64,000 bases of DNA from Bactericera cockerelli (lineage: Eukaryota; Arthropoda; Insecta; Hemiptera; Triozidae), in NCBI GenBank assembly GCA_024516035.1, contig JAMCCL010000143.1:1-64000 (forward strand), in the 5' to 3' direction. Below, piece after piece: positions 4,035 to 41,800 of the stretch. Within the stretch, counting starts at the first letter, position 1; each line of letters begins with the position of its first letter. The position numbers and the translations under genes were made by a program. The notes under the pieces were generated by a model, which did no database searches, had not been told where the DNA came from, and worked only from the letters and a program-made list of their open reading frames with translations.

Positions 4035-5203
4035 GTGAGTAGATACGGAGACCAGAATGTGCACGGACTCCGTGTATGAGAGGAGCAACTGTAAGGTGAG
4101 TAGGATACGAGAACAGTATGTGTACGGACTCGTGTATGAGAGGAGCAACTGTAAGGTGAGTAGGATACGAGAACAGAGAGAGGAGCAGCTGTAAGGTGAG
4201 TAGGATACGAGAACAGTATGTGTACGGACTCCGTGTATGAGAGGAGGCAACTGTAAGGTGAGTAGGATACGAGAACAGTATGTGTACGGACTCCGTGTAT
4301 GAGAGGAGCAACTGTAAGTTGAGTAGGATACGAGAACAGTATGTGCACGGACTCCGTGTATGAGAGGAGCAACTGTAAGGTGAGTAGGATACGAGAACAG
4401 TATGTGTACGGACTCCGTGTATGAGAGGAGCAACTGTAAGGTGAGTAGGATACGAGGAACAGTATGTGTACGGACTCGGTGTATGAGAGGAGCAACTGTA
4501 AGGTGAGTAGGATACGAAACAGAGAGAGGAGCAGCTGTAAGGTGAGTAGGATACGAGAACAGTATGTGTACGGACTCCGTGTAGAGGGAGCAACTGTAAG
4601 GTGAGTAGGATACGAGAACAGTATGTGTACGGACTCCGTGTATGAGAGGAGCAACTGTAAGTTGAGTAGGATACGAGAACAGTATGTGCACGGACTCCGT
4701 GTATGAGAGGAGCAACTGTAAGGTGAGTAGGATACGAGAACAGTATGTGTACGGACTCCGTGTATGAGAGGAGCAACTGTAAGGTGAGTAGGATACGAGA
4801 ACAGTATGTGTACGGACTCCGTGTATGAGAGGAGCAACTGTAAGGTGAGTAGGATACGAGAACAGTATGTGTACGGACTCCGTGTAGAGAGGAGCAACTG
4901 TAAGGTGAGTAGGATACAGAACAGTATGTGTACGGACTCCGTGTATGAGAGGAGCAACTGTAAGGTGAGTAGGATACGAGAACAGTATGTGTACGGACTC
5001 CGTGTATGAGAGGAGCAAGGTGAGTAGGATACGAGAACAATAATGTGTACGGACTCCGTGTATGAGAGGAGCAACTGTAAGGTGAGTAGGATACGAGAAC
5101 AGTATGTGTACGGACTCCGTGTATGAGAGGAGCAACTGTAAGGTGAGTAGGATACGAGAACAGTATGTGTACGGACTCCGTGTATGAGAGGAGCAACTGT
5201 ATG
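4035..5203 (+). repeat. 61-bp minisatellite, block 1: exon tail plus 5' splice site
   Basis: About 20 tandem copies of a 61-bp unit made of 50 bases of the preceding exon end and 11 intron bases (GTGAGTAGGAT). About 18 copies keep a perfect AAG|GTGAGT donor; two read GTTGAG. Short variants lacking about 27 bp (GAGAACAGAGAGAGGAGC) occur near 4165 and 4520. The minus strand happens to be free of stops in all frames, which makes long ORFs of no coding value. Confidence 0.9.
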
Positions 5204-5237
5204 TATGTACGAATTTCTTTTGTTGGGAAGCACAAGG

Positions 5238-5507
5238 CCTCTTCACAATTTTTGTGGGTAGCGCAGCATTACTAAAGCCTCCTTTACATTTCGAATTATT
5301 CTATTACATTAATTTCTTTTTACTCTCGGTAATGCCGCCACATGGTCGTTACTCATACAAGTAACTACTCATTTTTCCTCACGAGGTATGAGTGGACCCC
5401 CCAACATCCAAGTACAGAGCAGAAAAAATCCTCCCCCGCTGGGAATTGAACCCAGGTCACCATGTGTGCAATGCCTAGCGCGCTAACTCGCTCTGCCACA
5501 GTGACTA
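5238..5507 (-). mobile_element. tRNA-derived SINE, family C
   Basis: On the minus strand it starts GTAGTCACTGTGGCAGAGCG, has a B box GGTTCAATTCCC and a tail domain containing CTCTGTACTTGGATG and CCTCGTGAGGAAAAATGAGT. Closely related copies lie at 13651, 29668, 43095 and 32622. It splits the 61-bp minisatellite into two blocks, so it arrived after the array had formed. Confidence 0.85.
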
Positions 5508-6577
5508 CTGAGAGGAGCAACTGTAAGGTGAGTAGGATAACGAGAATAGAGAGAGGAGCAACTGTAAGGTGAGTAGGATACAGGAACAGAGAGAGGAGCA
5601 ACTGTAAGGTGAGTAGGATACGAGAACAGAGAGAGGAGCAACTGTAAGGTGAGTAGGTTGCGAGAACAGTATGTGTACGGACTCCGTGTATGAGAGGAGC
5701 AACTGTAAGGTGAGTAGGATGCGAGAACAGTATGTGTACGGACTTTGGTGTATGAGAGGAGCAACTGTAAGGGAGTAGGATACGAGAAAGAGAGAGGAGC
5801 AACTGTAAGGTGAGTAGGATGCGAGAACAGTATGTGTACGGACTCCGTGTAGAGAGGAGCAACTGTAAGGTGAGTAGGATGCGAGAACAGTATGTGTACG
5901 GACTTTGTGTATGAGAGGAGCAACTGTAAGGTGAGTAGGATGCGAGAACAGTATGTGTACGGACTCCGTGTGTGAGGGGAGAAAACTGGTAAGGTGAGTA
6001 GGATACGAGAACAGTATGTGTACGGACTCCGTGATAAAGGAGAACTGTAAGGGTGAGTAGGAGAACGAAACAGTATGTGTACGGACTCCGTGTATGAGAG
6101 GAGCAACTGAAAGGGTTGAGTAGGATACGAGAAACAGTATGTGTACGGACTCCGTGTATGAGAGGAGCAACTGTAAGGTGAGTATGTGCGAGAACAGTAT
6201 GTGTACGGACTCCGTGTTGTGAGAGTAGCAACTGTAAGGTGATGGGATTACGAGAACAGAATGTGTACGGACTCCGTGTATGAGAGGAGCAACTGTAAGG
6301 TGAGTGGGGATACGAGAACAGTATGTGTACGGACTCCGTGTATGAGAGGAGCAACTGTGAGGTGAGTAGGATACGAGAACAAAAATGTGTTACGGACTCC
6401 GTGTATGAGAGGAGCAACTGTAAGGTGAGTAGGATACGAGAACAGTATGTGTAGGGGACTCCGGGGTATGAGAGGAGCAACTGTAAGGTGAGTAGGATAC
6501 GAGAACAGTATGGTAACGGACTCCTTTGTATGAGAGGAGCCAACTGTAAGGTGAGTGGGATACGAGAACAGAATGAG
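5508..6577 (+). repeat. 61-bp minisatellite, block 2
   Basis: This continues the exon-tail/donor array beyond the SINE with about 18 copies, including several short-form units at 5515-5650. Many units have single-base indels (for example near 5990-6120 and 6440-6500). Most retain AAG|GTGAGT. The array ends near 6577, about 590 bp before the next exon. Confidence 0.9.
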
Positions 6578-7168
6578 CGCTCGGTGAACTTTTGACGTGA
6601 CATACACGGCGCATTGCATAACGGGGAAAAAAATAACGGCGTAACTTAGTTTTTTTGGAAAACTGATGTAGGTATTTCCTCAAACCAAGTCACAAAGGCA
6701 CATTATATTTTATTATAATGATTCGTTTGTGTGCATGTTTACCTAGTGATTTGCTTTTCACTAAAGTGTAGTACCTACCTTTTAAACTATAAAAATAATA
6801 ATTAAAAAAATATTTTTACTGACAATCTTTTCATTTTTTTGCCTTTTGAAACAGTACACTGTTTCTAAAGATGTTTTATCACTTGGTCAATGGTGGATTA
6901 TTATGTGATGATGTTGTTTCTACCATTGGTGAGAGTCAATACTAATTAATATTACGTTGTAGTTGTTTATACTTTTGTTTACAAGCGTTGTTTACTGTAA
7001 AGCCTGGACATGAAAGGGAAACCTAGACATTGGATCTGGGCGTCCATATAATCCTCCTACCCCCGGGTGATTTAGGTATCAATACCTACCCACGGACACA
7101 GAATTTAAATTATTTTTATTATACTGAAAAACAAAGCTTGATTGAATTTTGTTTCACATTTCCCACAG
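6578..7168. other. Intron with a SINE-E tail fragment
   Basis: About 6600-7000 is AT-rich with nothing recognised. From about 7003 to 7110 there is the distal end of SINE family E (GGATCTGGGCGTCCATATAA and GTATCAATACCTACCCACGG). Confidence 0.5.
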
Positions 7169-7346
7169 GAAAGGAGCTGGCGGGCAGTCCCATGATTTGT
7201 TCCTCCCCGGGGCTCGATCCTGGACCCTCCTGGGTCTGAGCAACTGGCGCCATTTCCTGCACCCGCCTGGCCTCCAGCGGCCTCGCCTCTACGACAAGGT
7301 GGCGCCAACGTGGGACTGGATCGCCAAGACACTGAGTGAGAAGTGA
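7169..7346 (+). CDS. Last coding exon of the protease homolog (Ser195 region to stop)
   Basis: The acceptor is TTTCCCACAG ending at 7168. The exon reads KELAGSPMICSSPG, shifts frame once near 7210, then continues WTLLGLSNWRHFLH, LQRPRLYDKV, WDWIAKTLSEK and TGA. The GDSGGP signature is reduced to E-L-A-G-S-P, so the nucleophile Ser195 is Ala. The closing W-x-W-I helix is typical of chymotrypsin-fold proteins. Joining it to the preceding exon needs a one-base phase correction, as expected if one more indel lies in that exon. Confidence 0.75.
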
Positions 7347-7797
7347 TTGAGTATCCGCTGGACGAGGCTTGCGCCAAGACACTGAGTGAGAAGTGATTGA
7401 GTAGTCGCTGGACGAGCCTTGCGCCAAGACACTGAGTGAGAAGTGATTGAGTAGTCCGAGGCTGGCGCCAAGACACTGAGTGTGAATTGATGAGTAGTGC
7501 TGGACGAGGCTTGCCCCAAAGACACTGAGTGAAAAAGTGATTGAGTAGTCGCTGGACGAGGCTTGCGCCAAGACACTGAGTGAAAAGTGATTGAGTATCG
7601 CTGGACGAGGCTTGCGCCAAGACACTGAGTGAGAAGTGATTGAGTAGTCGCTAGATCTGCGCCAAGACACTGAGTGAGAAGTGATTGAGTAGTCGAGGCT
7701 TGCGCCAAGACAATTGAGTAAAGTGATTGAGTAGTCGAGGCGCCAAGCACACTAGTGAGAAGTGATTGAGTAGTCGCCAAGACACTGAGTGAGAAGG
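7322..7797 (+). repeat. 50-bp minisatellite containing the terminal codons and stop
   Basis: About 10-11 tandem copies of a 50-bp unit starting CGCCAAGACACTGAGTGAGA. The first copy is the end of the coding exon (I-A-K-T-L-S-E-K-stop) and the rest of the unit is 3'UTR (TTGAGTAGTCGCTGGACGAG). Later copies lose the last 10-20 bases. The array therefore starts inside the coding sequence and runs into the presumed 3'UTR. Confidence 0.9.
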
Positions 7798-7830
7798 CCG
7801 CACGCACGGTGACCTGTAGCGATTTCCCAG

Positions 7831-7836
7831 AATAAA
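7831..7836 (+). terminator. Candidate poly(A) signal of the protease homolog
   Basis: AATAAA lies 34 bp after the terminal minisatellite. Its position after the stop-codon array makes it the natural 3' end signal. A related segment (GCACGCACGGTGACCTGT) recurs at 8733 without AATAAA. Confidence 0.45.
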
Positions 7837-8285
7837 CTTTCCAGTCCCCAAAAATTCCCGAATTTCCCTTTCATTTTGACAGTCATTTTGGCTGGGGGAC
7901 ATTAAACAGTGAGAAGACCATGTCTCGCTAGAGGACTATAAACAGAGAACAGACTAGCCAACCTTACAAGCCGGCTAGCTTGCAGTTTAATCCTAAGGGT
8001 TTAATGGCTTATAAAGAAAAGTTTTATATCCTCATGATGGTTGATCGCACAGAGAAATATGTGGTTCAGAACGAACCAACTTTGAAAATTAAGTTGCCTG
8101 GAGACCATACAGTAGCCAGCTGTAGCCAAGCTGGCTACAACAACAACAACTTTTTCCCTTCTCCAAATCCCCGAATCTCCCTTTTTACTGTCACGCAACG
8201 CACTCTGATTGGTTACTTTGAAAACCCAAAAACACGGAAACCCATTTAAAATTACATAAAACAATAAAAAATTATAGATTTTTAC
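7837..8285. other. 3' flank of the protease homolog with dispersed repeat pieces
   Basis: It contains a GACTATAAACAGAGAACAGACTAG motif related to the repeats at 24725 and 33420, and a CAACAACAAC tract near 8140. No gene is recognised. Confidence 0.35.
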
Positions 8286-8568
8286 GAGCGCACGAATAGC
8301 ACAGTAGTTAAGCACTCGCTTGCCATGCGGGAAGGTCCCGGGTTCGAACCCCTGCGCCGACAAAAATTTGTACTAATTATTTGGTTACAATTGTTTGGAA
8401 GGGATAACTTTCCCGGGGCGCTCGTGTTCATCGAGCACTTAATTGGGAAGTATTGTGCACTTCTCGCCCTCAGATTTGGGGGCATACTACGGGATGGGCA
8501 GGCTACAGCACAGAACACAACGTCTACAGTAGCCCCCGTTTCATGGCTACGAAATGAAACGGCTGTTT
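8286..8568 (+). mobile_element. tRNA-derived SINE, family D (best copy)
   Basis: The head CGAATAGCACAGTAGTTAAG and B box GGTTCGAACCCC are followed by a body with GGGATAACTTTCCCGGGGCG and the terminal CATGGCTACGAAATGAAACG. It matches copies at 1770, 3227 and 10606. Confidence 0.85.
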
Positions 8569-9851
8569 AAGCACCTATCTTTAATTTAAAAAAAAACGGA
8601 GATTTGGAGAATGGAAAGGTTTCTGGAACTGGGCTCGTTTACCAACAGAACAGAAATTGTCTACAGTTGAATTGTCTACAAACATAATAACACAAATAAA
8701 ATCACTGGATAGCCAAAACACTGAAGAAGGCCTGCACGCACGGTGACCTGTTATATAAACCGTTCCAGAAAAACTCCCTTGTACAAAAAAAATAGTGATC
8801 CCATTAAATTTCCTTTTTCATGATAAGGAAAGTAAAAAATGTGGGTATCAACTAGGTGCCTGTGTATGTTGTATATAAATATGATTTGACGAAACCTCAA
8901 GTGTAAAAAAAAAAAAAAAGTTTATATCGTCAGCTGGAAGGTAAAACTGACCATCTGCATTTAGACAATTTTTCAGGAGAGCCCCGCAAGTTCTTTCAGG
9001 TCAAAATTGTCTTTTAGGGAAAATTTGTTTTTTTGCTTTTTTCCCGTTTGTTTGAAATACTACCGAACTTTTTTATTTTTAGCCATTAGTTTTTTGGTTA
9101 GTTTTCCGACCAGAGTAACGAAAAATCGAAAAAAATAAACCAACTGTCACTTGGTCGGTTTTACCTTCTAGCCGACGATTTTGATAAATAATATTGTACA
9201 TTGATAATTATTTTAGTTTGTTCGAGATTATTAGGTAAAAAGAGAGAGGAATTATTACAAGAATGTTGTAAAATAATTTTATTTAAATTTGTCTTTTTAT
9301 TTCATATCTTGTATAAAAATCACTTAATCAGATTTATTATGAAAATTTAGGACCTAAATTTTATGGTCGCCTCACCCCTATTCAACGTTTTCCCGTTTAT
9401 ATGCTTGTAAATATAAATATTATCAATTATCAAATGGTATAATTTTTGTATTCTAATGATTGTAAAATATAATATTTAATATAACAACTAAGTTAGGTAA
9501 AGTTACCTGAATAAAAATTAAATACATATGTACCTAAATGTTAAAAGTAATCAGAACATTATTGTATAAAAATGTTTTTATTTAATTATTTCTACATAGA
9601 TATCTACCTAATTATATAAAATAAGTAAAAATGCGCAATGTCTTTTTTAAAATCTACTCTACCCCCCCCCCCCACCCCCTCCCCCCGACATGGAAAAACC
9701 CTCTTTTAGAAACTGTAGTTTATTACAGAGAAAGAAAAAAAGTCAGGTAAGTTTTGTCAGTATAACCAGTGGCGGAGTTGGGAAACTTTTTGGGGGACAA
9801 GAAAATTCGTGTGATTTTCTTTAATAATAATTCCATACCGTATATTAGTAT
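8569..9851. other. Intergenic AT-rich DNA
   Basis: A short duplicate of the 7797-7850 segment lies at 8725-8780. There are an A15 run near 8906 and a C-rich tract at 9661-9686. Otherwise nothing is recognised. Confidence 0.35.
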
Positions 9852-10165
9852 GTTGTTGTAAGCAACTACTTGGTTGTGACTACTGCCCGTAGTCCAGAGA
9901 TCCTGAGTTCGATCTCCGGTCAGAGCAAACTTGTCACTCAGAAAAATCTGTTCCCTCCGTGAGGCTGGCATTTCCGGCCCTACCCCGGCTGGGTGAAATT
10001 AATGTAGGTAGCTGGTACGATTCCCAGCGAATTAATCAGGACGTTAACACAAATAGAATTGTTGGCGTTAGGAAAGGCATCCAGCCATAAAAATGTGGCA
10101 CAACCAACCAAACTCAACCATGAGGTTTGAACAAAGCCGACCCCAAGTAGGCTTGGGAAAGGGCA
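9852..10165 (+). mobile_element. tRNA-derived SINE, family E
   Basis: The head includes GGTTGTGACTACTGCCCGTA and GAGTTCGATCTCC; the body has GAGGCTGGCATTTCCGGCCC and GGTAGCTGGTACGATTCCC. The end differs from the copies at 19457 and 54990, running into a different distal domain ending GAAGAAGAAG. Confidence 0.8.
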
Positions 10166-10374
10166 AAGTGGAAGAAGAAGATTTTTTTTTTTCTTTCAGA
10201 ATCTAATGAAATTCAACTTTACTTGGATAGTAAAATACCTATTACCTATGCAAATTGTATCGGGGCTTCTACAACATATCTCCTTATAAACTCGACAACA
10301 CAGATTTATTACATAAAAAGAGATGATATAATTACAATACCGTAAAAGTTAATAATTATTCAGAGGCTTGTCGT

Positions 10375-10465
10375 CCATAGAGTAAACTCTTTATTTAAAT
10401 TTATTTACTTAAATCACAGTGGGCGGGATTATTGCCTAAGGCAATCTCTACCATCCAACCCATAA
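10375..10465 (-). mobile_element. Non-LTR retrotransposon 3' tail fragment
   Basis: GTGGGCGGGATTATTGCCTA followed by GGCAATCTCTACCATCCAAC is the recurrent tail seen at 15405, 24783, 35931 and 25377. It probably belongs to the RT element at 21055, whose end has the related motif GAGATTGCCTCAGGCAATAA. Confidence 0.6.
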
Positions 10466-10605
10466 TCTTGCACCACTTAGAAATTATGTGCATAAATAAT
10501 ATTGAAAACAAGAACAACCAGTCTCAGAAATCAGTGCTTTCATTACAGAAAGAAAATTGAAAATGAGAGAAAAACACAATTTTACTACTGGTAGTGTCAC
10601 TAGCG

Positions 10606-10880
10606 AGAGCGGACGATTAGCTCAGTGGTAAGATACTCGCTTGCCATGCGGAAGATCCCGGGTTCGAATACCAGAGCCTACAAAATATTTGAATTGAAAA
10701 TTTGGTTACAGTTATTTGTAAGAGATACCTTCGGGTGCGTTCGTGTGACCCAGCACCTAAATGAGAAGTATTGTGTTACTTTTTTGCCCATCAAAGGGGA
10801 GGCATACTACGTGATGGGTAAGCTACAACACAGACCACAAGTGTCAATAGTAGCTGCTGTTTCGTGGCTACGAAATAAAA
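10606..10880 (+). mobile_element. tRNA-derived SINE, family D
   Basis: The head GACGATTAGCTCAGTGGTAA and B box GGGTTCGAATACC are followed by a body with AAGAGATACCTTCGGGTGCG and the terminal GTGGCTACGAAATAAA. Confidence 0.85.
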
Positions 10881-11042
10881 AAATAAATAGATATATTTGC
10901 TAAAAGTTGAAAAATGTAAATTAACCTGCTAATAATGTACACTTATTTCACTACCCGATTAGGGCTAAACGGTCATTATTCCAGCAATTGAATGCTAACA
11001 TTACGAGGTCCAAGTCTCTGATCAATTGGACAAAAAATAATG

Positions 11043-11122
11043 CAATGCGTGGGATTCGAACCAACCAATCCCTACGCTACCTGGATTAACAGACTAGAGA
11101 CTTAACCACTTCACCACCAATG
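11043..11122 (-). mobile_element. SINE family F head fragment
   Basis: GTGGGATTCGAACCAACCAA and CTACGCTACCTGGATTAACA are the antisense B-box and anticodon-arm parts of family F. Only the tRNA-like head is present. Confidence 0.6.
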
Positions 11123-12126
11123 CGTTTGAACGCCCGAGAAATAGCACGCCACGCCACTAGCATTACAACTATTTTAACGGCAAATTTACATTCCTACCAG
11201 TTAAAACACCTGTTCTATTAATTTGAACATTATAATTATTGCTTTGAATCATGAGATATGGTTTTGGCCTGAGATCAAAAACATAAATTTAAAATATTAA
11301 CCCTGTAATGACCAAGAAGTGAAAAAGACAAGGATTTTTTTTTCTTCTGAAATATTGGTTATATTAGGTTCAAAAATGTATAAAAAATCAACTTCGCCAG
11401 TCACGACCGCCCAAGGGCGGATGTTACGTATATTATGTAACATAAGCTTTTTTTGGGTCTCTAATACCCAATGTTACATAATATATTATGTATAACATGA
11501 AAGTTTGGGGACCTTTCTAGGTAGGAAATGTAGGAGTTTCATACAAAACTTCGTATGATACCGATAGGTGGAACACTCTTCTACACATATATAAAAATTC
11601 TTTATTTAATCTCCTTTATTTAATATTTAAAAAAAAACCTGAAAATAATTGAAAAGAAATTGACCCACTCAGTAGGCGTGCAGGTCCCTCAAAACACTCT
11701 TCTCTAAAATGACGAAAACTCTATGAAATCCCAAGTAGAACCCTACAAGGTTCACTTTTGTAAACAGCTGAGAGCAAGTGCGAGAAGTTAGACTAGGTTT
11801 CAAACGAAAAACACGAAATGAAAGCGAGCAGGAGTCTCTAAAATATCTAGTTACAATTTACATGTATTTTATATAACAAGGGGCATCACAGGGTTAAATA
11901 AATGTTCTTGTTTACTTTGTTGGTAGGTTGTAGGTACATAATGATTGTTTTATTAGGTACCATAGGTACCTACTCTATCATTTTACTATTTTATTCCTGA
12001 AAAAATATATGTATTTATAATTTATACGCATATGCCAGTTATGTAATAGTATAATAGTAATATTCCACTTTTACCTGTATTAAGTTAATTAGGCTGGTAT
12101 CTATCATAATCTTGATGTAAGTGCAA
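11123..12126. other. Intergenic DNA with a palindromic patch
   Basis: At 11408-11510 two adjacent palindromes occur, ATGTTAC...GTAACAT and ATGTTACATAATATATTATG. The remainder is AT-rich without a recognised gene. Confidence 0.4.
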
Positions 12127-12540
12127 TCAAACCTGGACAGAAGAGAACTGGAATTAAGAGAAAACCTGCATATTTATAAAAGAACTGGATTTAAGAGAAA
12201 CCTGGATATAAAAGAACTGGATTTCAGAAAACTGGATTTAAGAGAAAACCTGCATATAAGAGAACTAGATTGAAGAGAAAACCTGGATATAAGAGAACTA
12301 GATTTAAGAGAAAACCTGGATATAAGAGAACTGGATGGAAGAGAACTGCTTTTAAGAGAAATCTAGATACAAGAGAACTGGAATTAAGAGAAATCTGGAT
12401 TGAAGACAACTGGATTTAAGAGAAAACCTGGATAGAAGAAAACTGGATTTCAGAGAACAATTTTACCTCCCTAATTTACCTGCCTATAAGGGAAAAATAA
12501 CCTCTTTATAAGAGCAACTTGGATATAAGAGAAAAAATCC
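12127..12540. repeat. Degenerate minisatellite, GGATATAAGAGAACTGGAT type
   Basis: Repeating units of roughly 24-36 bp built from (A/T)TAAGAGAA and AAACCTGGAT. Similar words recur antisense at 30060-30290 (TCTTATATCCAGGTTTCTCT), so the family is dispersed. Confidence 0.8.
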
Positions 12541-12790
12541 GGTCCCTTGACTTCTCTTATATAAAATTCAACAGTAAAGAACTCTAGGGCCACGGGCCAA
12601 ATAATGGAGAGGATTAAATTTAAAATAAACTAGGCCCTCCCTCAAGTCTGAGTTCAACTAATCAGAGCCAACTATAGCCTGACTAGAAGGAGAGGCTGTC
12701 CTAAGCCATGATATATTTGTCCAGTTATTTTTAATAAGGGAATATGTTTCATTATCTTGTCTTCTTGCTTTCCCGATTTTTAATATTAAT

Positions 12791-12990
12791 AACACGCTTT
12801 AGTGGAAGGTAACCACCAGGCAAGGTTAATGCTCAAAGCATTTTCTACCACCTAACCCTCAGATTCTTATTATTTTGTGGTCACAAACTCAAATTCATGA
12901 GGAAAAATTCATGGGTGGGATTCGAACCAACGCATCCCTACGCTACCTAGATTACCTGACCAGCGGGTTAACCACTGGTCTACCAGTGCA
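12791..12990 (-). mobile_element. tRNA-derived SINE, family F
   Basis: The antisense B box is GGGATTCGAACCAACGC. The distal part has TAACCACCAGGCAAGGTTAA and ends toward AACACGCTTTAGTGGAAGG, the opposite orientation of the copies at 19828 and 27499. Confidence 0.85.
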
Positions 12991-13452
12991 CTTTTCTTGA
13001 AGTTTCGAGAAAAAAATATAACAGTTTAACACAAAATGATAACTTGATACCTATAATTAACAATCATTCATGTGTGGGGCCTCTGAATTTTTTTTGTTTT
13101 TTTTTTTTGTTTTTTGTTTTGAACATTAATTTAAAGAGAGGTCTATAACAATCCAAGTCTTTGCCCTCTGAATATTTAGTAACTGGAAGGACGTTCACTC
13201 ACGTACGCAATTATAATACTCCAGTCGATATTCTGAGAAAAAAACAATCCTTGTCCAGACAGTCCAGACCGAACATTAGAGAACTGGAAGATTTTTTCCT
13301 TATTCGGTCAGAGACCTTTGGCTTGGCACTAATTTTTTTTGGCAAAATATGTTAGGTAATATTTTTGAACAATTTTTTCCTGTATGTAAATTAGGACACT
13401 TCGCAATCTACACTTTTCTAAATGCGAAAGTCACTTCCCTAATAATAATATA
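12991..13452. other. Intergenic, no feature recognised
   Basis: AT-rich, with a TTTTTGTTTT tract near 13090. Nothing further is supported. Confidence 0.3.
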
Positions 13453-13618
13453 CAGCCGACCTCCGTGGCTCAGTGGTTTAGAGCATTGGTTGTTGACCCG
13501 GAGGTTGCGGGTTCGAAACCCGGCTGGAGCGGAAAATTCTAACCGAGTTTTTCCGTTTCCGGAATGGCATAGATGTAAAGGTTAAGTGCCCTGAATGGTA
13601 AGGTGCCGGATTTTTTTA
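13453..13618 (+). mobile_element. tRNA-derived SINE, family A
   Basis: CTCCGTGGCTCAGTGGTTTA and GGTTCGAAACCC give the tRNA-like promoter; the body ends GCCCTGAATGGTAAGGTGCC. It is flanked on both sides by AATAATAATAT, a probable target-site duplication. Confidence 0.85.
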
Positions 13619-13650
13619 TTAATAATAATAATATCGTATTATTTCTTCTC

Positions 13651-13925
13651 GTAGTCACCGTGGCCAAGTAAGTTGGCAAGCTAGGCATTGCAGGCATGGT
13701 GTGCTGGGTTCAATCCCCACCGGGGCAGGAATTTTTCCGCTCTGTACTTGGATGTTCGGGGTCCACTCATACCTTGTGAGGAAAAATAAGTAGCTGCTTT
13801 GATGTGAAGCAGCGACCAGTGGCGGAATCATAGGGGGGAATACAAGATATTGTATTTTAAAAGTGGTAAAATCCTATGATTCTGCGCTACCCACTAAAAT
13901 TGTGACATAATAACACAAAGAAAAA
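13651..13925 (+). mobile_element. tRNA-derived SINE, family C (full copy)
   Basis: It begins GTAGTCACCGTGGCCAAG, has the B box GGTTCAATCCCC, continues with TCTGTACTTGGATGTTCGGG and CTCATACCTTGTGAGGAAAA, and ends ACCCACTAAAATTGTGACAT. Its distal half is shared with the copies at 43095 and 5238. Confidence 0.9.
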
Positions 13926-13943
13926 CATTATTGTTATTATTTC

Positions 13944-14128
13944 TACTGCCCGATTAGGACTAACTATAAAGTCCCATTACTTCAGCAGTAAGTCCAAGAC
14001 ATATTACTATGTGGTAAAAATCCCAAATGGGAAGATAACTTGTCATGTCCCGGCTGGGTTTCGAACCCGCGACCTCTGGAATCTCTGGATTCACAGAGTG
14101 CCGCCTTTACCACTGAGTTACCGGGACA
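13944..14128 (-). mobile_element. tRNA-derived SINE, family B
   Basis: Read on the minus strand it starts TCCCGGTAACTCAGTGGTAA, with B box GGGTTTCGAACCC (palindromic) and distal CTACTGCCCGATTAGGACTA. It faces the copy at 14246, giving an inverted pair about 120 bp apart. Confidence 0.9.
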
Positions 14129-14245
14129 GAAGATAATGAAATACCTACTGATTTATTTTAGGGTCAATGACCCCGCGAAAATTCCTTGCTTTTATCTCAA
14201 ACGCATTCGGAAGTGATAAGTTTATCATTTTAACTGGAAGTTCCT

Positions 14246-14450
14246 TTCCAGGTAGCTCAGTGGTAAAGGCGGCACTCTGTGAGTCCAGAGATTCCAGAGG
14301 TCGCGGGTTCGAAACCCAGCCGGGACATGACAAGTTATCCTCTCATTTGGGATTTTTACCACATAATAATATGTCTTGCGCTTACTGCTGAAATAATGGG
14401 ACTTTAATAGTCCTAATCGGGCAGTATAAATAAGGCGATATTATTATTAT
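14246..14450 (+). mobile_element. tRNA-derived SINE, family B
   Basis: TTCCAGGTAGCTCAGTGGTA and GGTTCGAAACCC are followed by GACAAGTTATCCTCTCATTT and TAATCGGGCAGTATAAATAA, ending in TTATTATTAT. A head fragment of the same family (GTTGCGGGTTCGAAACCC) lies at about 14530-14580. Confidence 0.9.
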
Positions 14451-15404
14451 CTATTAACGAGCTTTGGCTTGCTTCGCTACGGTTTGTACCGGAAAGCTTG
14501 TGAACATACTTTAGTTATTGAATTCTGGTAATCCAGAGGTTGCGGGTTCGAAACCCAGCCGGGGCATGACAAGTTATCGTCCAATAGTGGGTTCTATTAT
14601 ATCCAGGTTCCACTGTAATTGAACTTCTTACTACTAGTGGGAATGTAACTTGATCTAACAAATCAATTTAGTTATTATTATCAATTTAGTTATTATTATT
14701 TTCGGGATGGTTTCCGATTACGTAACCTACAATTTCTTCTTTGGTTTTGGTTTGCGCAGCCAAAATTCCTGCCGGACCAACAAGTCTCTGCAAACCAGTT
14801 TCAGACGGTAAAAAATAGTTCCAATAGTTTTATTCCCATGGTCAAGGAGGTAAAAACTGAATTTTTTGTTCAGAACAACTGGTTTGCACTGAATATTTCT
14901 ATCAAGTCTTTTTTTTTAAGGAGAGGTGGTAAAATCTGTAGACGAACACTAGATTTTACCCTAGTAAACAGTGTGAGTACTGAGCTACTGAGATGCAGAC
15001 AACAGTGCATCATTCTCACTAAAAACCACCTCTCCTGCTAAACGTATGATCCCGGAACCGTTCAAAACATTACATCGGGTATCATATGCTTTTAGGTCTC
15101 CCACTATATGTTTTGGGGGTTTCTCTCGTTCTTTTCTTTCTCGTTTACAATATTCTTCTGATCATTTCTTCGATGTTTTTCCAGCATTCAGGTGAACTTA
15201 GCATTTTTTCAATTATATTTTCCTCGCTCAGTTGTCCTTCGATTTACTCTGGGACATTTTACTCTTAGATAATTGAACCTCTCGCAGAAGAAGACAGTAC
15301 GCGCTGGGTTATCTTTGAGATGTGGACAGTATTTGCACTTTTATCAAGTTTAGGGTTGGTTTTTTCTCAGAACCATCATATTTCAATATCTATTTATTTA
15401 TTTA
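14451..15404. other. Intergenic, one exon-like segment
   Basis: A 48-bp open segment at 14760-14807 lies between TTTGCGCAG and GTAAAA (reads PKFLPDQQVSANQFQT). It is splice-like but I cannot tie it to a gene. The rest is unrecognised. Confidence 0.25.
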
Positions 15405-15575
15405 TTTTAGTTAGAAACTCTTTATTAGTAGAACATATATATACAGACAAATAATGGTAAATTTTCAATATATTATTGACAATATTATTTTAATAATATA
15501 AACAAGAAAAAAATAAACAAAATATATACATATGTCCTAACTAAAGGGCGGGGTTATTGCCTATGGCAATATCAA
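15405..15575 (-). mobile_element. Non-LTR retrotransposon 3' tail
   Basis: TTAGAAACTCTTTATTAGTA opens the copy and CTAACTAAAGGGCGGGGTTA with TTGCCTATGGCAATATC closes it. It is the same ~180-bp antisense tail as at 24783 and 35931. Confidence 0.7.
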
Positions 15576-16375: not shown

Positions 16376-16426
16376 TGAAAAAGTCAGTGGAATATTCATC
16401 TTATGAACATTATTTCTGGTATACAA

Positions 16427-17035: not shown

Positions 17036-17038
17036 ATG

Positions 17039-17072
<34 letters not shown>

Positions 17073-17078
<6 letters not shown>

Positions 17079-26696: not shown

Positions 26697-26711
26697 ATGG
26701 CAAATGTCAAG
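26697..26711 (+). CDS. PNPO-like exon 1 (start codon, MANVK)
   Basis: ATGGCAAATGTCAAG is followed by GTAAGA. It is chosen as start because it ends in phase 0, exactly what the next exon needs, and gives a total length divisible by three. It is short, so a different first exon cannot be excluded; transcript data would decide. Confidence 0.55.
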
Positions 26712-29800: not shown

Positions 29801-32800
29801 ATGAGTAGCTGTTTTAATGTTAGCAGATTCTGGTGGAGGTGGAAATATGAGGTTTCTCCTAGGAGACGGATGTTTTTCCTTTAGTTGAGTGTATACGTCA
29901 CTTTTCTCTGCAAGTGTATCAGATGAAAACAAAATCTTGACAGCACCACGTACTGATTAAATTGAATTATTTTTCGAACATTAGAGATGAGTCAGTCATA
30001 CGACGGGATCGACAAACGAAAACACAGAACATAATTAAGTATATTAGCTACTGAGTGTCTTATATCCAGGTTTTTCTTAATTAGAGGACATTACCTTAAA
30101 GAGAGGTAAATTTGACCCAGAAATGGTTCTCTTATATCCAGGTTTCTCTTTATTAGAGGACATTACCTTAAAGAGAGGTAAATTTGACCTAGAAATGGTT
30201 CTCTTATATCCAGGTTTCTCTTTGTTAGAGGACATTACCTAGAAAGGCAAATTTGACCTAGAAATGGTTCTCGTATATCAAGGTTTCTCTTATATCTCAG
30301 TTTGACTGCATTTATGTAATTATGCATTAACATAATTAATTTTTTAATTTATATTAATTGGTCCTTGAGATGAAGGACAGACGTGCCGGGGAATATTTCA
30401 GGCAACGGGATAGTTTCGCTGTTCAGAGAGGTAATGTTGCCTCAGTGCTGAGTACACTGCCTCGGAAAAATGTCCTTGGAGAAGAATTTATATGTTTTAT
30501 TTAATTAATTTCTGTATCCTCAGAAAATCAACGGGACGAACGGCACGAAGGAGACCAACGGGACCAACGGACACAGCTTCGACCTGGAGCCCTCGGACTT
30601 GTCGAAGATTGACAACCCGCCCGACAACCCGTACCAACTGTTCCAGGAGTGGTTCAGCACCGCCAAGGAGGCCGACCTAGTGCTGCCCCAAGCCCTCATT
30701 CTGTCCACCGCAACTCCGTAAGTTCAATAGTTGGCAGTGTTGGCACTGTCAATAGTTGTGAGTTCATTTGTTGGCACAACCAAAACATGTAAGAGGTTTC
30801 TAATTAGTGCAGCTACGTAAGTTCAATTTTTGGCACCGCCAATATTAATTTGTAAGTTCATTTGTTTTCACAACCAAATAGTTGGTAGTGTTAATACTGT
30901 CTATAGTTGTGAGTTCATTCGTTGGCACAACCAATTCATGTAACACTTTTTTGATTAGTGCAACTACGTAAGTTCAATTTTTGGCACCGCCAATATTAAT
31001 TTGTAAGTTCATTTGTTTTCACAACCAAATAGTTGGTAGTGTCAATACTGTCGATAGTTGTGAGTTCATTTGTTGGCACAACCAAATAGTTGCTAGTGTC
31101 AATACTGTCGATAGTTGTGAGTTCATTTGTTGGCACAACCAAATAGTTGGTAGTGTCAATACTGTCGATAGTTGTGAGTTCATTTGTTGGCATAACCAAT
31201 TTTTGTAACAGTAATTTTGACAATGCCAATGTCTTTCAGTTAATTTGTAGCACTGCAACTATTAGTAAAAAAATCCGAAAATACCTTTGCTTAAGTTCAT
31301 TTGTTGGCACTGCGAATATTTGTAAGTTTATTTATTCATTGTTGACAACCAAATTTCGGAAACACATAGTACCCTTGTGAGGGTCTTAGGTGAGATTAAA
31401 ATTAGCGCTGGGTTAGACCGGGTCGCTACTATCTCTTTCATCTAGTGTTTTTAGAATATACAAATTGTATGTATTGTCTATAGAGTTCCTCACTGGTAGA
31501 GCTTTTCATAGGGTGGGTCAACTGAGCCCAAATTCCCTAGGTTGAGGCCCACCTGATGAGCCAAAATGTTTACTGGGGGCACAGAATAGAATCTAGACTC
31601 AGGGTACAACAATCTTGTGTATGGCCCTGTTCGTAGACATAGTTTGAAACAATGTAATAACTGTTCACTGGTTATGTAAAAGAATTAATTCATAGCTCGA
31701 TTAAAGAAACATATAGATAAATCAATGGAGTAACTTGCTTGTTATATAAACCTTGCAATAACTTCAGCATTGCAACATTGTTGCAAGTTGGATTTTTCCA
31801 TCAATATCGATGGATTAATAATTACAGAAGCTCTTTAGTTCTACTGCGCCGGCATAGATAAAATGTTTTTAGTTTTCAATCAATTGCAGGGGATTTTTCT
31901 GGCGAGAAGATTGATGACTTCTCACTTTTCTGTTTCTACTGATACTGATTCGGTACCCGATAGAACAGGAGTTTAGTCTACATGGTAAAGCCAACATGTT
32001 TCCTCGTTAATTTGAGTTTGGGACCACATAATACGAGTGATAAGGCTCTGAGGGTTAGGTGGTGGAAAATGCTTTGGGTATTCACCTCGCCCGGTGGGTG
32101 CTTTCCAGTAAAAATAATTATTATTATTCATTTTTTAGAAAAAAACATTCATAGTTCAAACTTGTGGTACCTGTCCCGGTAGCTCAGTGGTAAAGGCGGC
32201 ACTGTGTGATTCCAGAGATTCGAGAGGTCGTGGGTTCGAAACCCAGCCGGGAAAAGACAAGTTATCCTCCCATTTACCACATAATAATACGTCTTAGTCT
32301 TACTGCTGGAATAATGGGACTTAATAGTCCTAATCGGGCAGTATAAATAAGGCGATATTATTATTATTATTATTACCTAACGACCCTGATAGTCTTGAAC
32401 TATATGCAGGTAGATACACCTAATAAGTATGTTTTATTCTTGTATTTTTTATACATATATTATATAAAAAGGGTACTTTAAATTAAAGATATTAATATTC
32501 AACAATTCTGATCAATCTTTATTTACATTTTTTTATATACAGGTGCAGATAAACAAAGTTTGATCAAGGGTGGTGATAATGCCTTTGGCATTCTCTTCCT
32601 AAAGAGGTAGTTATTTGTGTTATGTCACAGTTTTTAGTAGGTAGCATCGAAATTACAAGAAGTACTAATTCTAATGCATCATATCAATCTCGTAATGCCG
32701 CCACTGGTCGTTGCCCACTCTACAACTACCCCAATTGTCCTCACGAGGATCGGGTAGGCCCCGACATCCAAAGTACAGGGCCGAAAAAAATTCCGACCCC

Positions 32801-35800
32801 TCCGGAACTCGAACCTGGGTCACCTGGAGTGCAAGCCGAGCATGCTACCGCTAGGCCAAGGTGACTACCTAGCTGTTGATGATTGAAAACAGACGGTCGA
32901 TTTATTTCTAATTAAAAAGAAAAACAGTCATGAAAATTTTATTCCTGTAAGAAAATAAACACTGCTGCTAACAGAAATATAGAAAAAATACCGAACCAAT
33001 TAATTGTTATGTACAGCTCATTTACATGATATTCCTAATTAAATGTAAGTACATACACAATAAATTTATAACTGATTTTGTACAAGATGCCCATATACTA
33101 TGTATTTATGTGGTGTGTAAATTTAATTGTACAAATAAAGGCTACATTACATACACAATTACTGTTTCAAATAGGTACATGTTGTAAAAGTATACATCTA
33201 GATTCTATATGTTATAAAAGAGCCTATTTACATGCTATAAATTATTGATGCATCAGTTGAGATAAAATGCGATGAATTGCATTGCAAATGCATGGTTTTA
33301 AATGAAGGTACCTGCCATTATTTAACTGGCAGCAAAAAGTGGTTACACTTGATTTTTTTTTCTTCCCCATCAGGACTAGATTTTTTCTGCTCTGTACTTT
33401 CTGGGGGACTATGAACAAGGAGTAGACAAGTAGTCTGGCTGGGGGACTATAAACAGGGAGTAGACCAGCAGACTGGCTGGGGACTATAAATAGGGAGTAG
33501 ACCAGCATTGGCTTGGTTCTGGGGGCCCTTGTCAATTATTAGCCTCCTTGGAAAGACAGTGGTAGTAGTGATGAGTCATTCCTCCACTGTCTGGCTACCA
33601 TCGTTCAAGATTACGCCAACCTATGATGATGATGATGTACCTACGTAGATTTTAATTGTGTCTCCTATTTCTAGACGTTTGGCTGTCTGTCCGTTTTTGG
33701 TATTCCTTGTAACGCGTAAATCTGTGAAACTACTGAACGGAATTCAACGAAATTTCGTACATAATAGATGACGTATTGTATGTAGATGGTCTCATTTTTA
33801 AATTCATCAACTTCGAACTAGCGGATCTTGGAGATAAAGACGCACAGTTAGAGGTCAGGCGCCTTTAACTGTTTACTTAAACGCTTTTATCTCGTGAACG
33901 GTACGCAGAGGTTCGAACCCGGGACCTTCCGCATGGCAAGCGAGTGCTTAACCACTGAGCTATTCGCGCGTTTTCTTTGTAATCATGATGTTTAATGTAA
34001 TGATAGTGATGGGTGGCAGCAGCAGTATATCGGTTGTTGATGCAGTCCGGTTGTCTTGCCACTGAAAGATCTGATGAATCGGCGAATACTTGTTTTGTTT
34101 TTTTATTTCTTTAAAATTTTTTTTGTAAAGTCCTTGAGTTTGAAGGGCAATAAAGTCCTTGAGTTTGAAGGGCAATGTTAAAAGCTGGGGGAGGTGAGTG
34201 ACCATGTCAAATTACATAACCACATCAATCAGCCGCATCGTTAACTTATCAGGTGATGTCTAATTGGCGAATTTATTAAAGTTGATCATGATGATGATGA
34301 TTTTATTGATTTTCATTCCTAATGATAATAATTGGAAATTCCTCATGATAAATGAACCGTAAATGTCGATGGAAAGGACACATGTAAACTCCCCCGGTTT
34401 TTTGAAAGGTTCGTATTTCCGGTTGTAAATTCCCCCGGTAAAATATTTGATTACCTGAGGGTTTCATGGTAAATTCCCCCGATTCTGTACGTACAGGTAT
34501 AAAATTGTATATTGTAGGTATGTAGGCAATCTTTTTTTCCTTATAGGCATAGCCTTCAATTAATGAACCGAGGCATGGCCTACATTGTATTTTACCTAAC
34601 CCTACTATAAACCCAAGGCATGGCCTTCATTGTATTTTACCTAACCCTGCTATATAAACCCAAGGCATGGCCTTCATTGTATTTTACCTAACCCTACTAT
34701 AAACCCAAGGCATGGCCTTCATTGTATTTTACCTAACCCTACTATAAACCCAAGGCATGGCCTTCATTGTATTTTACCTAACCCTGCTATATAAACCCAA
34801 GGCATGGCCTTCATTGTATTTTACCTAACCCTACTATAAACCCAAGGCATGGCCGTCATTGTATTTTACCTAACCCTACTATAAAGCCAAGGCATGGCCT
34901 TCATTGTATTTTACCTAACCCTACTATACACCCAAGGCATATCGAAACTTGATTACAAATATTCAATAAACATCATCGGGGGAATTTACATTATACCTTT
35001 TTTTTGCAATCGGGGGAATTTTCATGTACCTTTTTAAGTCCCAAATTTGCAATCGGGGTAGTTTGTATGAAAGCGGGGGAATTTACAATCGCCCGATGGA
35101 AATATCGGAAGCATAAAATAATTACATAAATGAATATACATAGAAAGAGTGTAGGTTTTTTTTTTAGCATTGGGCAAAAACAACCCATACAGGCATAAGT
35201 GTATGTTAGGTTTGTACATATTGATTACATACTTACATAGGCCATCATATATACTAAAGAGTAGGTAGTTAGTAGTTATCACTTACCGTAGACAAGTAGA
35301 TGGTGCACTGACTAGCAACTTGCGTGACCCGGGTGCGAATCCCAGCTGGATTCAAAATTGTCAATTATTATTTCCACTTTCTCTCTTTTGGAAGGTAATT
35401 ATTACCTTTTAAAGGGTATTACACCAGGATCGGATCATATGATCAAGTCTCCTGGTGTTGTAACTTCAGGAGCGGATCCGAAGATCAAGTCTCCTGAAGT
35501 TGTTAGGTTCATAATGTGGGGAGGTTATTTTATGATGGACTTTGTGTAGTCCATCTTTTTCTCTCCCGTGGCTATCCCTCTTGGTGGTCCAATGGATTTT
35601 TCCATAGGAAAACACTTTCGGGGGTACGGATGGATCCGAACAGCCACTTGGTCACATTATGAACCATTAGGTATGTCAACAGAATTTTCATGAGGACATG
35701 CCTCACTACTTTTAGAGAAGGTGTCTCTATGCTTCTGTTGACATACCTCGCAGTCAGTGTTCATATGGTATTGTGAATTACCATACTACTTCCTGGGACG

Positions 35801-38800
35801 TTGCTGATACTTGCAACCATCCAGGGATCACTGACCACTTGCTCGGGTGCCTCGGGAACGCCAAATCCCGTATGACCATTTATTGCTAAATAGTCATCCC
35901 TGAGGTATTATTATTATTATTATTATTATTAAACACTTTTTTAGATATAAAAAGACACTGTACGGTACAAATAATTATGAGAACAATTAAAAAAATGGAA
36001 ACAATATATACAATAAATAGTAAAAAGAATAGAAAAATATATATAAACATATGTCCTAACTAAAGGGTGGGGTTATTACCTATGGCAATCTCTTCCACCC
36101 AATCACTCAATTCTGTATCTTTAGAATCTTCAGAAGTCCGAGGTCTACTCAGACTCTCGTGAGGACATATGAGTTGCTTCTTTTTATTGTAGCTTCTCTT
36201 TAACATGTAAGTCATTCGAGACCGGGGTTTTACTCCCCATTGGACCGGAATGTCATCAGCATAACTGAGAATCCAACAAATGTTTCAGAGGCTTTTTTTA
36301 ATTTGGGTTTAACGTCGCTTTCAACAGCATGGTCATATCACAACAGGGGTGTTACCCTCCATTCGTTCGCAGGAAACTCACAAACCTGCAACCCACATTA
36401 ACCTCAGTCAGCCTGGGTATGGCCGAAATACCAGCATCACAAACTATTCACCTCCCTGGTCGTTGCTTAACTTCGATGAGCCTACGAGAAGCGGTGCATT
36501 CAACGCGCCATCGACGCTCTATTAAATAATTATAGTTCGTTAGTTAACATAATTATTGAGTTAATCACTTTCGTGATATCGCAACTACTCAAACTCGCTT
36601 TACTAAATCCACGCTGAAACCGGGACTTGAATTACCGACCTCCAGGTTACAAGTCCGCCGCCTTATCGATCAAGCTACTGAGATCGGTGAAAATTGCATC
36701 ACGAAAAAAACAGCCACAAACTTTTGTTCGCACACAAACGCAAGTGTGTCCATTACATAACCTGCTCGTTGTTGTGTAATAAGCACATCCTCAGAGATAT
36801 GGAGCCAATGCTGCTGAGCTGGGGTTCTGAGAATAGAGCACTTTTCCATGAGGTTGTGAGCAATTAGCAAAAGCGGTCGTTGCTATTCAATGGTTCAAGC
36901 CTATGCGACCATACAGGGTGGTCCATTATAAAGAACACACTCAAATATCTCGGAAACGCAAAATCTTAGTAGTCATTCAATAGAAAATAGATCAATCCTG
37001 TGACCGACCTCAGTAGTTTGAACGATAAGGCGATGGACTTGTAACCTGTAGGTCGGTGGTTCAAGTCACGGTTCTAGCGTGGATTTAGTAAAGCGAGTTT
37101 GAGTAGTTGTGATATCACGTAAGTAATTAACACAAGTATGATAAGTTAAAAAAAAAACTTTTAGATCAATCCTGTGTGACTATACAGGGTGGTCCATTAT
37201 AAAGAAGCCACTCAAATATCTCGGAAAGGAAAAATCTTAGTATTCATTCAATAGAAAATAAATCAATCCTATGCGACTATACAAGGTGGTCCATTAAAAA
37301 GAACACACTCAAATATCTCGGAAACGCAAAATCTTTGTAGTCATTCAATACAAAATAGATCAATCCTATGCGACTATACATACAGGGTGGTCCATTAAAA
37401 AGGACACACTCAAATATCTCGGAAACGCAAAATCTTAGCAGTCATTCAATAGAAAATAGATTAATCCTGTGTGACTATACGAGGTGGTCTATTATGAAGG
37501 ACACACTCAAATATCTCGGAAAGGAAAATTCTTAGTAGAATTTCAATAGAGAATAGATCAATCCTGTGTGCCTATCTGACTATATACAGGGTGGTCCAAT
37601 ACAAAGAACACACTCAAATATCTCGGAAACGCAAAATCTTAGTAGTCATAGTCATTCAATAGAGAATAGATCAATCCTATGCGACTATACGAGGTGGTCC
37701 ATTATGAAGGGCACACTCAAATATCTTGGAAGCGCAAAATATTAGTAGTCATTTAATAGAAAATAGATCAATCCTGTGTGACTATATGGGGTGGTCCATT
37801 ATAAAGAACACACTCAAATATCTTGAAAAGGTAAAGTCTTAGTAGTCATTCAATACAAAATAGATCAATCCTGTGTGACTATACAGGGTGGTCCATTATA
37901 AAGAACACACTCAAATATCTTTGAAAGATAAAGTCTTAGGAGCTATTCAATACAAAATAGATGAATCCCATGCGATACAGGGTGGTCCAATACAAAGAAC
38001 ACACTCAAATATCTCGGAAAGGAAAAATCTTAGTAGAATTTCAATAGAAAATAGATCAATCCTATGCGACCATACAGGGTGGTCCATTATAAAGGACACA
38101 CTCAAATATTTCGGAAACGCAAAATCTTAGTAGAATTTCAATAGAGAATAAATCAATTCTGTGTGACTATACATGTGTTCAGACGCGATTTTCATTCCAA
38201 GAATAGTTCACTTTTCCAAGAGGTTGTGAGCAATTATTAAAAGCGGTCGTTGCTATTCAATGGTTCAACCATAGCATGTAGAATTCAGAGGTGAGGAAAC
38301 GAACCCCAGTTGCATGGAAACGCCACATAGCGCGACACCATCGCAAAGGAGTAGAATATTTCTCGCGGTCTATATTTATGTTTATGTTTACATTTGATAC
38401 GGGGGAAGAAATTTTGTGAGGGACGAGGAGAGGAGACTCCTTTGAGGTACTAGCGCTGAGGACGCCACGATGTAGGCCGGCGGGGGTGGTTTCTACACCT
38501 CTTAATCCTACACGCTATGGTTCAATCTTATGCGACTATACAGGGTGACATGCGCAGAAACCAGTTTGAGTATAAAAAAACATATTGTTTTGTTTCAGAG
38601 ATGGGAAGGTATCCTCCAGGACTCTGCTGCTCAGGCGACTAGAGGAGGATGGATTCGTCATCATGACAGACAACAGAAGTCGCAAACATGCTCAGATAGT
38701 AAGTCGCCATATTTAATAGCCACGGCAAACATGCTCAGATAGTAAGTCGCCATATTTAATAGCCACCGCAAACATGCTCAGATAGTAAGTCGCCATATTT

Positions 38801-41800
38801 AATAGCCACCACAAACATGCTCAGATAGTAAATCGGCATATTTAATAGCCACCGCAAACATGCTAAGATAGTAAGTCGACATATTTGATAGCCACCGCAA
38901 ACATGCTCAGATAGTAAGTCGCCATATTTGATAGCCACCGCAAACATGCTCAGATAGTAAGTCGCCATATTTTTTTTTTTTAATATTTATTATGTAAAAC
39001 GTTCAATTGAAATATTTCCTTCACAGTCAGTACTCTCTTTTCCAATGATCAATTCCATCTTCATACCCCAACAACGACTCTCCACTCCTCCATCTTCTCC
39101 TAGCTCTTCTTATGCACATACTCGCTGAACGCTCCGCAGCAATGGAAATTTTGGCTCGAACCCATTTTAATAGCCACCACAATAGCCAAAAAAACATGCT
39201 CAGATAGTACCTAAGTGGATAGCCGCCATATTGGATAGCCACCATCGTAGGTGTGTCGATCTCGTGTCACCACCATACAAGCCCAGTGCGCATGCTCTTG
39301 TCTCGGTATCTCAGTAGTCAAGGTGTCGATCTGTATTCCAGAGGTTGCGGGTTCGAGTTGGGACATGCGAAGTGACAAGTTATCCTATCATTTTTGATTT
39401 TGACCACAAAATAATACCTCTATGACAGATGGCATTACTAAAGTAGGTATTATAAATATAACCAACCGCAGAAGCTCGATTGATAAGGCAATGGACTCGC
39501 AACCTGGAGTTCGGTGGTTTGAGTCCCGAGAACGGCGAATATTGTATTCCCAAATTTCTGTTCTGCATTTTAAAAACAATCACATTTTCTACGATAATAT
39601 TAATAGTTATGGACAGATTTTTAAGTCAAAGTCACCCGTACATTACCTGCTTAATTATCTATGAGGTTTTGTTTGAGGACATACCTTATCTTTATCGTGT
39701 TCCATCTCACAGAGAATTTTGTTTCATACACCAGGAATTTTGTTTCATACATCAGGAATTTTGGTTTACTTCAGGAATTTTGCTTCATACATCAGGAATT
39801 TTGGTTTACTTCAGGAATTTCGTTTCATACATCAGGAATTTCGGTTTACTTCAGGAATTTTGTTTCATACATCAGGAATTTTGGTTTACTTCAGGAATTT
39901 TGCTTCATACATCAGGAATTTTGGTTTACTTCAGGAATTTTGTTTCATACATCAGGAATTTTGGTTTACTTCAGGAATTTTGCTTCATACATCAGGAATT
40001 TTGGTTTACTTCAGGAATTTCGTTTCATACATCAGGAATTTTGGTTTACTTCAGTAATTTTGTTTCATACATCAGGTATTTCGTTACTTACATCAGGAAT
40101 TTTGGTTGACATCAGGATTTTGGTTTGCTTCAGGAATTTTGGTTTACTTTAGGAATTTTGTTACATCATCAGGAATTTTGGTTTACATCAGGAATTTTGT
40201 TTCATACATCAGGAATTTTGGTTTACTTCAGGAATTTTGTTTTACTTCAGGAATTTTGTTACATACATCAGGAATTTTGGTTTACTTCAGGAATTTTGTT
40301 ACATCATCAGGAATTTTGGCTTACTTTGGGAATTTTGTTTCATACAACAAGAACAAGAATTTTGGTTTACTTCAGGAATTTTGTTTCATACATCAGGAAT
40401 TTTGGTTTACTTCAGGAATTTTGTTTCATACATCAGGATTTTGGTTTATTTCAGGAATTTTGGTTTACTTCAGGAATTTTGTTACATCATCAGGAATTTC
40501 GGTTTACTTCAAGAATTTTGTTGCATCATCAGGAATTTTGGCTTACTTTGGGAATTTTGTTTCATACGACAAGAATTTTGGTTTACTTCAGGAATTTTGT
40601 TACATCATCAGGAATTTTGGTTTACTTCAGGAATTTTCGTTTGCATCAGGAATTTTGGTTTACTTCAGGAATTTTTTTTCATACATCATGAATTTTGGTT
40701 TACTTCAGGAATTTTGTTTCATACATCAGGAATTTTGGTTTACTTCAGGAATTTTGCTTCATACATCAGGAATTTTGGTTTACTTCAGGAATTTCGTTTC
40801 ATACATCAGGAATTTCGGTTTACTTCAGGAATTTTGTTTCATACATCAGGAATTTTGGTTTACTTCAGGAATTTTGCTTCATACATCAGGAATTTTGGTT
40901 TACTTCAGGAATTTTGTTTCATACATCAGGAATTTTGGTTTACTTCAGGAATTTTGCTTCATACATCAGGAATTTTGGTTTACTTCAGGAATTTCGTTTC
41001 ATACATCAGGAATTTTGGTTTACTTCAGTAATTTTGTTTCATACATCAGGTATTTCGTTACTTACATCAGGAATTTTGGTTGACATCAGGATTTTGGTTT
41101 GCTTCAGGAATTTTGGTTTACTTTAGGAATTTTGTTACATCATCAGGAATTTTGGTTTACATCAGGAATTTTGTTTCATACATCAGGAATTTTGGTTTAC
41201 TTCAGGAATTTTGTTTTACTTCAGGAATTTTGTTACATACATCAGGAATTTTGGTTTACTTCAGGAATTTTGTTACATCATCAGGAATTTTGGCTTACTT
41301 TGGGAATTTTGTTTCATACAACAAGAACAAGAATTTTGGTTTACTTCAGGAATTTTGTTTCATACATCAGGAATTTTGGTTTACTTCAGGAATTTTGTTT
41401 CATACATCAGGATTTTGGTTTATTTCAGGAATTTTGGTTTACTTCAGGAATTTTGTTACATCATCAGGAATTTCGGTTTACTTCAAGAATTTTGTTGCAT
41501 CATCAGGAATTTTGGCTTACTTTGGGAATTTTGTTTCATACGACAAGAATTTTGGTTTACTTCAGGAATTTTGTTACATCATCAGGAATTTTGGTTTACT
41601 TCAGGAATTTTCGTTTGCATCAGGAATTTTGGTTTACTTCAGGAATTTTGTTTCATACATCATGAATTTTGGTTTACTTCAGGAATTTTGTTTCATACAT
41701 CAGGAATTTTGGTTTACTTCAGGAATGTTGTCTGAAAAGAGGCGAGCAATGATGTTAAGTAATAATGTGTGCTTGATGTTACTAAAAAATAAAATCAATG

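Follow-up and report, generated by a model that had tools for sequence, protein, structure and literature searches.

Genes and repeat arrays at the locus

The stretch of DNA analysed here (the window, 64,000 nucleotides) comprises bases 1-64000 of the unplaced contig C92 in a psyllid assembly of 565 Mb and 1032 contigs, and holds exons of two genes on the forward strand, PNPO and a gene referred to here as gene 1. Interspersed repeats make up much of the locus. The PNPO coding sequence lies in six exons: the first coding exon (26697..26711, encoding MANVK), three exons at 30524..30717, 38599..38698 and 45197..45274, each equal to part of the protein P0001, a fifth at 54727..54929 and the last coding exon at 56446..56578. 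The donor of the first exon, both edges of the fifth and the acceptor of the last carry no array. Translation of the six joined exons gives exactly the 240-residue protein P0001. Since P0001 is encoded by contigs of at most 1536 bp and the PNPO gene itself spans 26697-56578, this protein reflects a spliced message. The nearest named relatives of the product are psyllid proteins, from Cyamophila (71% identity), Cacopsylla (70%) and Diaphorina (67-75%).

The last coding exon of gene 1 (7169..7346, forward strand) encodes a C-terminus with only a weak match to trypsin-like proteases (E 0.56), and the gene may be nudel. Its reading frame is broken on C92 and open on the large contig C11, where a counterpart of the window was found near 21.41-21.47 Mb. 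Another gene 1 exon has its last base at 4034, followed by a GT donor (4034..4036, forward strand), in a phase that matches the next exon on C11; a donor at 4029 was rejected because the frame on C11 fits 4034. The frame breaks lie within 1-7800, where either poor contig-end sequence or real decay may account for them. A (CCTAA)n block, which resembles the insect telomere repeat, occupies 1236-1525 and ends 24 bp upstream of a gene 1 acceptor.

The C11 counterpart, roughly 84-99.8% identical to C92 across aligned pieces longer than 400 bp (arrays excluded), is taken as the other haplotype, although it may instead be a recent duplicate. A partial third PNPO copy lies at C11:21.67 Mb. Amongst the other differences between the copies, an element at 46105-54217 on C92, flanked by 586-bp end repeats and presumably BEL/Pao-like judging from its open frames, is absent at the matching place on C11, and the segment 16216-19204 matches C11 in pieces in the reverse orientation, which looks like an inversion between copies.

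The earlier note on this DNA described arrays at exon ends whose units contain the exon tail, the donor and the start of the intron. This description holds for two of them. The 61-bp minisatellite of gene 1 (3985..6575, forward strand) begins inside the exon and covers its last 50 bases; its unit consists of about 50 exon bases plus GTGAGTAGGAT, and the units bear AAG|GTGAGT, spanning 4034. It has roughly 31-39 copies on C92, including 40-bp short units, and 9.2 on C11. An interspersed repeat, which we assume to be SINE-like, lies inside it at 5202..5509 (no strand assigned); the array is older than this insert, because the C11 array carries none. In PNPO, the 43-bp array (38681..38972, forward strand) has a unit of 18 exon and 25 intron bases spanning ATA|GTAAGT at 38698, with GTAAGT kept in 6 of 7 units, and counts 6.8 copies on C92 versus 13.8 on C11. 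A degenerate remnant of it, judged by eye, follows past an insertion at 39165..39240 on the same strand.

For the third array named in the note (57/151 bp, 30718..31199, forward strand), only part of the description stands: it does begin at the PNPO donor 30717, but a clear exon part could not be demonstrated, as at most 7/8 exon bases recur, in some units, in the window copy, and the main 57-bp array of the C11 copy has no exon part at all, its start lying 21 bp inside the intron. The 50-bp array at 7322..7796 (forward strand) was confirmed as having a unit that contains the last codons of gene 1 and the stop TGA.

Three features go beyond the earlier note, and with them arrays are seen at acceptors as well as donors. 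A two-copy 76-bp duplication (45049..45204, forward strand) repeats a polypyrimidine stretch, a CAG acceptor and 8 bases from the start of PNPO exon 45197; a two-copy 65-bp duplication (45277..45405, forward strand) starts at the third intron base after the PNPO donor 45274; and on C11 only, a 63-bp unit is repeated four times over another gene 1 donor. The 50-bp, 76-bp and 65-bp units are tandem on C92 and single on C11, the latter two being single in the third PNPO copy as well. By eye, the junctions of the 76-bp and 65-bp duplications share little sequence. The separate origins with the same geometry that had been proposed for the arrays were supported, in that the unit sequences are not related to one another and a single DNA search placed the 43-bp unit nowhere but in the two locus copies.

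Splicing of the PNPO message

The arrays had been expected to present dozens of equivalent donors to the spliceosome. Use of many such donors was not seen in the one mRNA-derived protein available, P0001, in which the PNPO message is joined at exon-adjacent sites, including donor 38698 and acceptor 45197. In-frame stops would follow use of either of the two donors that come next in the 43-bp array, and likewise of one later donor of the 30717 array or the upstream acceptor copy. No new intron between two copies of a duplicated site was seen in the PNPO message. For this one gene, then, a regular mRNA is made despite repeated splice signals, as in the amphioxus arrays discussed below.

Array edges and exon edges in the window and in exon samples

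In PNPO, an array edge lies at 3 of 5 donors and 1 of 5 acceptors, against 0.18 expected when 14 arrays were placed uniformly (p = 3e-5), and stricter settings gave p values of 1e-4 to 2.5e-4. The enrichment also holds if interspersed repeats are barred to array starts (p = 1e-4, 60/10 setting). An earlier uniform-placement test over the whole window, based on first estimates of the exon edges, had found 4 donor-start arrays versus 0.15 expected. Coverage of boundaries, counted within 10 bp of any array, was unremarkable (5 seen, 2.5 expected, p = 0.13). Chance within the window alone was rejected on the uniform placement with the checked PNPO edges. As the window was chosen for the pattern, the real test comes from samples elsewhere and from whole-genome word counts, and both agree with the enrichment in the window.

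The comparison of exons with random placement suggested in the earlier note was run on kinase exons, with a result in its favour. The sample consisted of 61 partial single-exon hits at 57 loci, out of 134 kinase matches, chosen blind to repeats after whole-domain hits, frame-broken hits and apparent haplotype duplicates had been excluded by eye. Arrays had a period of at least 15 and a span of at least 55, and were counted when they started between -60 and +10 of the 3' edge (donor side) or ended between -10 and +60 of the 5' edge (acceptor side). Edge arrays were found on the donor side of 8 of the 61 exons and on the acceptor side of 6, or in 13 exons overall, whereas 1.86 and 1.87 were expected with arrays placed at random in these loci (p = 2e-4 and 8e-3, joint 1e-4). 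The two batches were uneven, with 2 of 22 exons in the first and 11 of 39 in the second. Sample exon edges are edges of profile hits, accurate to a few codons. The density of array edges peaked in the last 50 bp of exon hits (2.3/kb at donors, 1.6/kb at acceptors) and averaged about 0.3/kb at 50-550 bp into the intron; the donor-side intron profile was itself uneven, as 4 arrays start 200-250 bp in (1.3/kb). No counted array in the kinase sample starts 50-100 bp inside an exon hit.

Exon tail plus donor, or acceptor plus exon head, is repeated at L046, L060, L065, L066, L074, L075, L078, L081, L083 and L091; L060 has arrays at donor and acceptor alike, and L083 lay 2 bp outside the edge criterion and was not counted. 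The counted edge arrays at L052, L061, L062, L064 and L106 have few or no clear exon bases. Amongst the array units of the exon samples (n = 41), a strong donor motif occurred in 8 on the gene strand and in 1 on the other strand, compared with 4.9% and 1.4% of random windows. At L066, the intron holds a further array, about 200 bp in (972-1226 in gene orientation), which repeats the exon tail with its donor and resembles a series of exon ends placed at a distance from the exon.

A myosin sample (20 of 77 matches, with 130-bp flanks and no flank control) contained 4 of 20 exons with an edge array, 2 at donors and 2 at acceptors. The AMP-binding profile had 17 matches, none of which entered the exon samples. 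Roughly one in five of the sampled exons (17/81) thus has an edge array.

Differences between locus copies

Six pairs of kinase locus copies, whose haplotype status is inferred, were compared. In the pair L060/L095, the donor array has 5.7 versus 3.2 copies and the acceptor array 7.0 versus 3.0, and in L046/L096 the exon-adjoining array has 11 versus 2. The pairs L065/L097 and L062/L098 also differ, with arrays that extend past the sequence compared; L064/L099 and L061/L100 have nearly identical arrays. Units at L060, L065, L066 and L081 are 97-100% alike, and several edge arrays look young on such sequence likeness. Many kinase exons (G000 list) occur twice on one contig at some distance, which looks like unmerged haplotypes.

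Whole-genome word counts

The tandem pair CAGGTAAGT N20-50 CAGGTAAGT occurs 846 times genome-wide, versus 16 for the reversed-word control. The single CAGGTAAGT word was found 8137 times versus 4347 for its reverse, and the share of words that open a pair was 10.4% versus 0.37%. For AAGGTGAGT, pairs numbered 1163 versus 253 reversed, with near-equal single words (6828 versus 6888). These pair counts are not independent, being inflated by long arrays, one of which (C1:25.2-25.3 Mb, 21-bp unit) is not evidently at an exon. Among the matches listed, the CAGGTAAGT pairs belong to at least 7 arrays on C1, and three of these arrays are copies of a single one. When the first 100 single sites listed were searched for clustering within 300 bp, 5 of 86 loci were clustered for CAGGTAAGT (0.3 expected) and 7 of 79 for AAGGTGAGT (0.2 expected). 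The acceptor word pair gave a weak signal, 53 versus 22, and two related arrays on C7 account for the majority of the 53. A 48-bp donor array was seen three times within 0.25 Mb, at G000:C1:29.18, 29.31 and 29.42 Mb, with differing copy numbers; haplotypes left unmerged, or recent copies of a gene, may explain this.

Relation to known systems

With the same anatomy, the arrays described here are boundary minisatellites, of the kind named mirages in amphioxus, for whose Adh gene the original paper is said to be that of Canestro in 2002. As summarized in their reports, amphioxus mirages are minisatellite-like tandem duplications across exon-intron boundaries in globin, Adh and troponin C genes (PMC3087553, PMC3902484); in Adh3 and globin they occur at both boundaries and differ in copy number between haplotypes, with splicing intact (PMC3087553). 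On these accounts, mirages and psyllid arrays are alike in that the unit spans the boundary, at 5' and 3' ends, with the splice signals, that length varies between haplotypes (inferred ones in the psyllid) and that splicing is normal (in the psyllid, for PNPO). In contrast to the amphioxus reports, which in the parts available concern single genes, the psyllid arrays occur in an insect, in 17 of 81 sampled exons and with a measured edge bias.

Related duplications have been outlined in other systems. Human segmental duplications contain internal tandem repeats with minisatellite units at exon-intron boundaries and variable copy number (PMC2812944); according to that summary these modify paralogs and can create introns, whereas psyllid PNPO keeps an ordinary intron. 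Vertebrate repair-mediated duplications are short and local, some including intron splice sites (PMC2671141), and the abstract describes no arrays at exon edges such as those in the psyllid. Donor duplication in the stwintrons of Lipomyces (PMC7138796) and tandem duplication of proto-splice sites in Drosophila (PMC2891723) share with the psyllid a splice site copied in tandem by a short duplication; as abstracted, however, they involve 4-7 nt copies or within-exon duplications that yield new intron structures, and arrays are not described. Boundary minisatellites in insects, or estimates of their frequency, did not appear in the literature searched, which comprised titles and abstract openings, most subscription papers lying outside it. 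The insect occurrence, the frequency and the border bias look new.

Origin and meaning of the arrays

Given the observed anatomy, the differences between locus copies, the edge enrichment in the samples and the normal splicing of one gene, the arrays are probably mirage-type boundary duplications that are mostly neutral passengers and several times likelier at the edges of exons than deep within introns. The first step would be a tandem duplication, roughly 20-100 bp long, with its start or end up to about 50 bp into the exon, by which the splice site is copied intronward, and the duplicate would then expand or contract through unequal exchange or slippage. The strand slippage, R-loops and link to exon shuffling put forward in the earlier note are conjectural as causes. 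Edge duplications would arise, or persist, several times more often than intron-interior ones. The little sequence shared at the junctions of the two-copy cases would suit repair-type duplication. As one copy of the site next to the exon still functions, arrays would be tolerated and for that reason mostly neutral; since alternative sites lead to in-frame stops and the donor core is not consistently better conserved than the remainder of its unit, the copies look like passengers.

Boundary minisatellites have been reported, as far as the published summaries go, from a few lancelet genes (PMC3087553, PMC3902484). If they are common in an insect genome, it would offer many natural cassettes, each a row of several near-identical splice sites, so that ordinary RNA data could show how such sites compete and how introns are born, and the question would arise as to why exon edges are prone to duplication. 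Borders in this lineage may be mutational hot spots at which a process linked to transcription, splicing or chromatin keeps seeding duplications, leaving about one-fifth of exons arrayed, a tentative reading to which we give somewhat less than an even chance. Were it true, many genes would be a shifting test of the spliceosome's choice among equal sites.

The bias might also reflect survival instead of mutation. Duplications would then be born evenly, those deep in exons being purged and intronic ones eroded or overwritten by transposons, so that edge duplications last. The absence of array starts deeper inside exon hits and the large share of interspersed repeats at the locus fit this account, which we nevertheless consider unlikely: the young-looking arrays of L060, L065, L066 and L081, and the lack of some edge arrays in one locus copy, leave uneven erosion little time, the window enrichment survives the avoidance of interspersed repeats, and, with several edge arrays looking young, more frequent hits are favoured over longer retention. 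More improbable still is selection for the extra splice sites, for example as backup donors or for slower splicing. One half of the 61-bp array does have fewer substitutions per site in the donor core (0.021) than in the rest (0.054), but the other half shows no such difference (0.013 versus 0.011-0.015 in exon-derived parts), and with rates so mixed between halves selection on the copied donors was dropped; additionally, in-frame stops follow from the upstream acceptor copy of PNPO and from those of its later donors that were tried, and array presence and copy number vary between locus copies. An assembly or sequencing artefact has very little to recommend it. The start of C92 does have gene 1 frame errors that the C11 copy lacks; nevertheless, the arrays recur with differing copy numbers on separately assembled locus copies, one of them contains an inserted repeat, and sampling covered all 13 large contigs, 9 of which hold the 17 exons with edge arrays.
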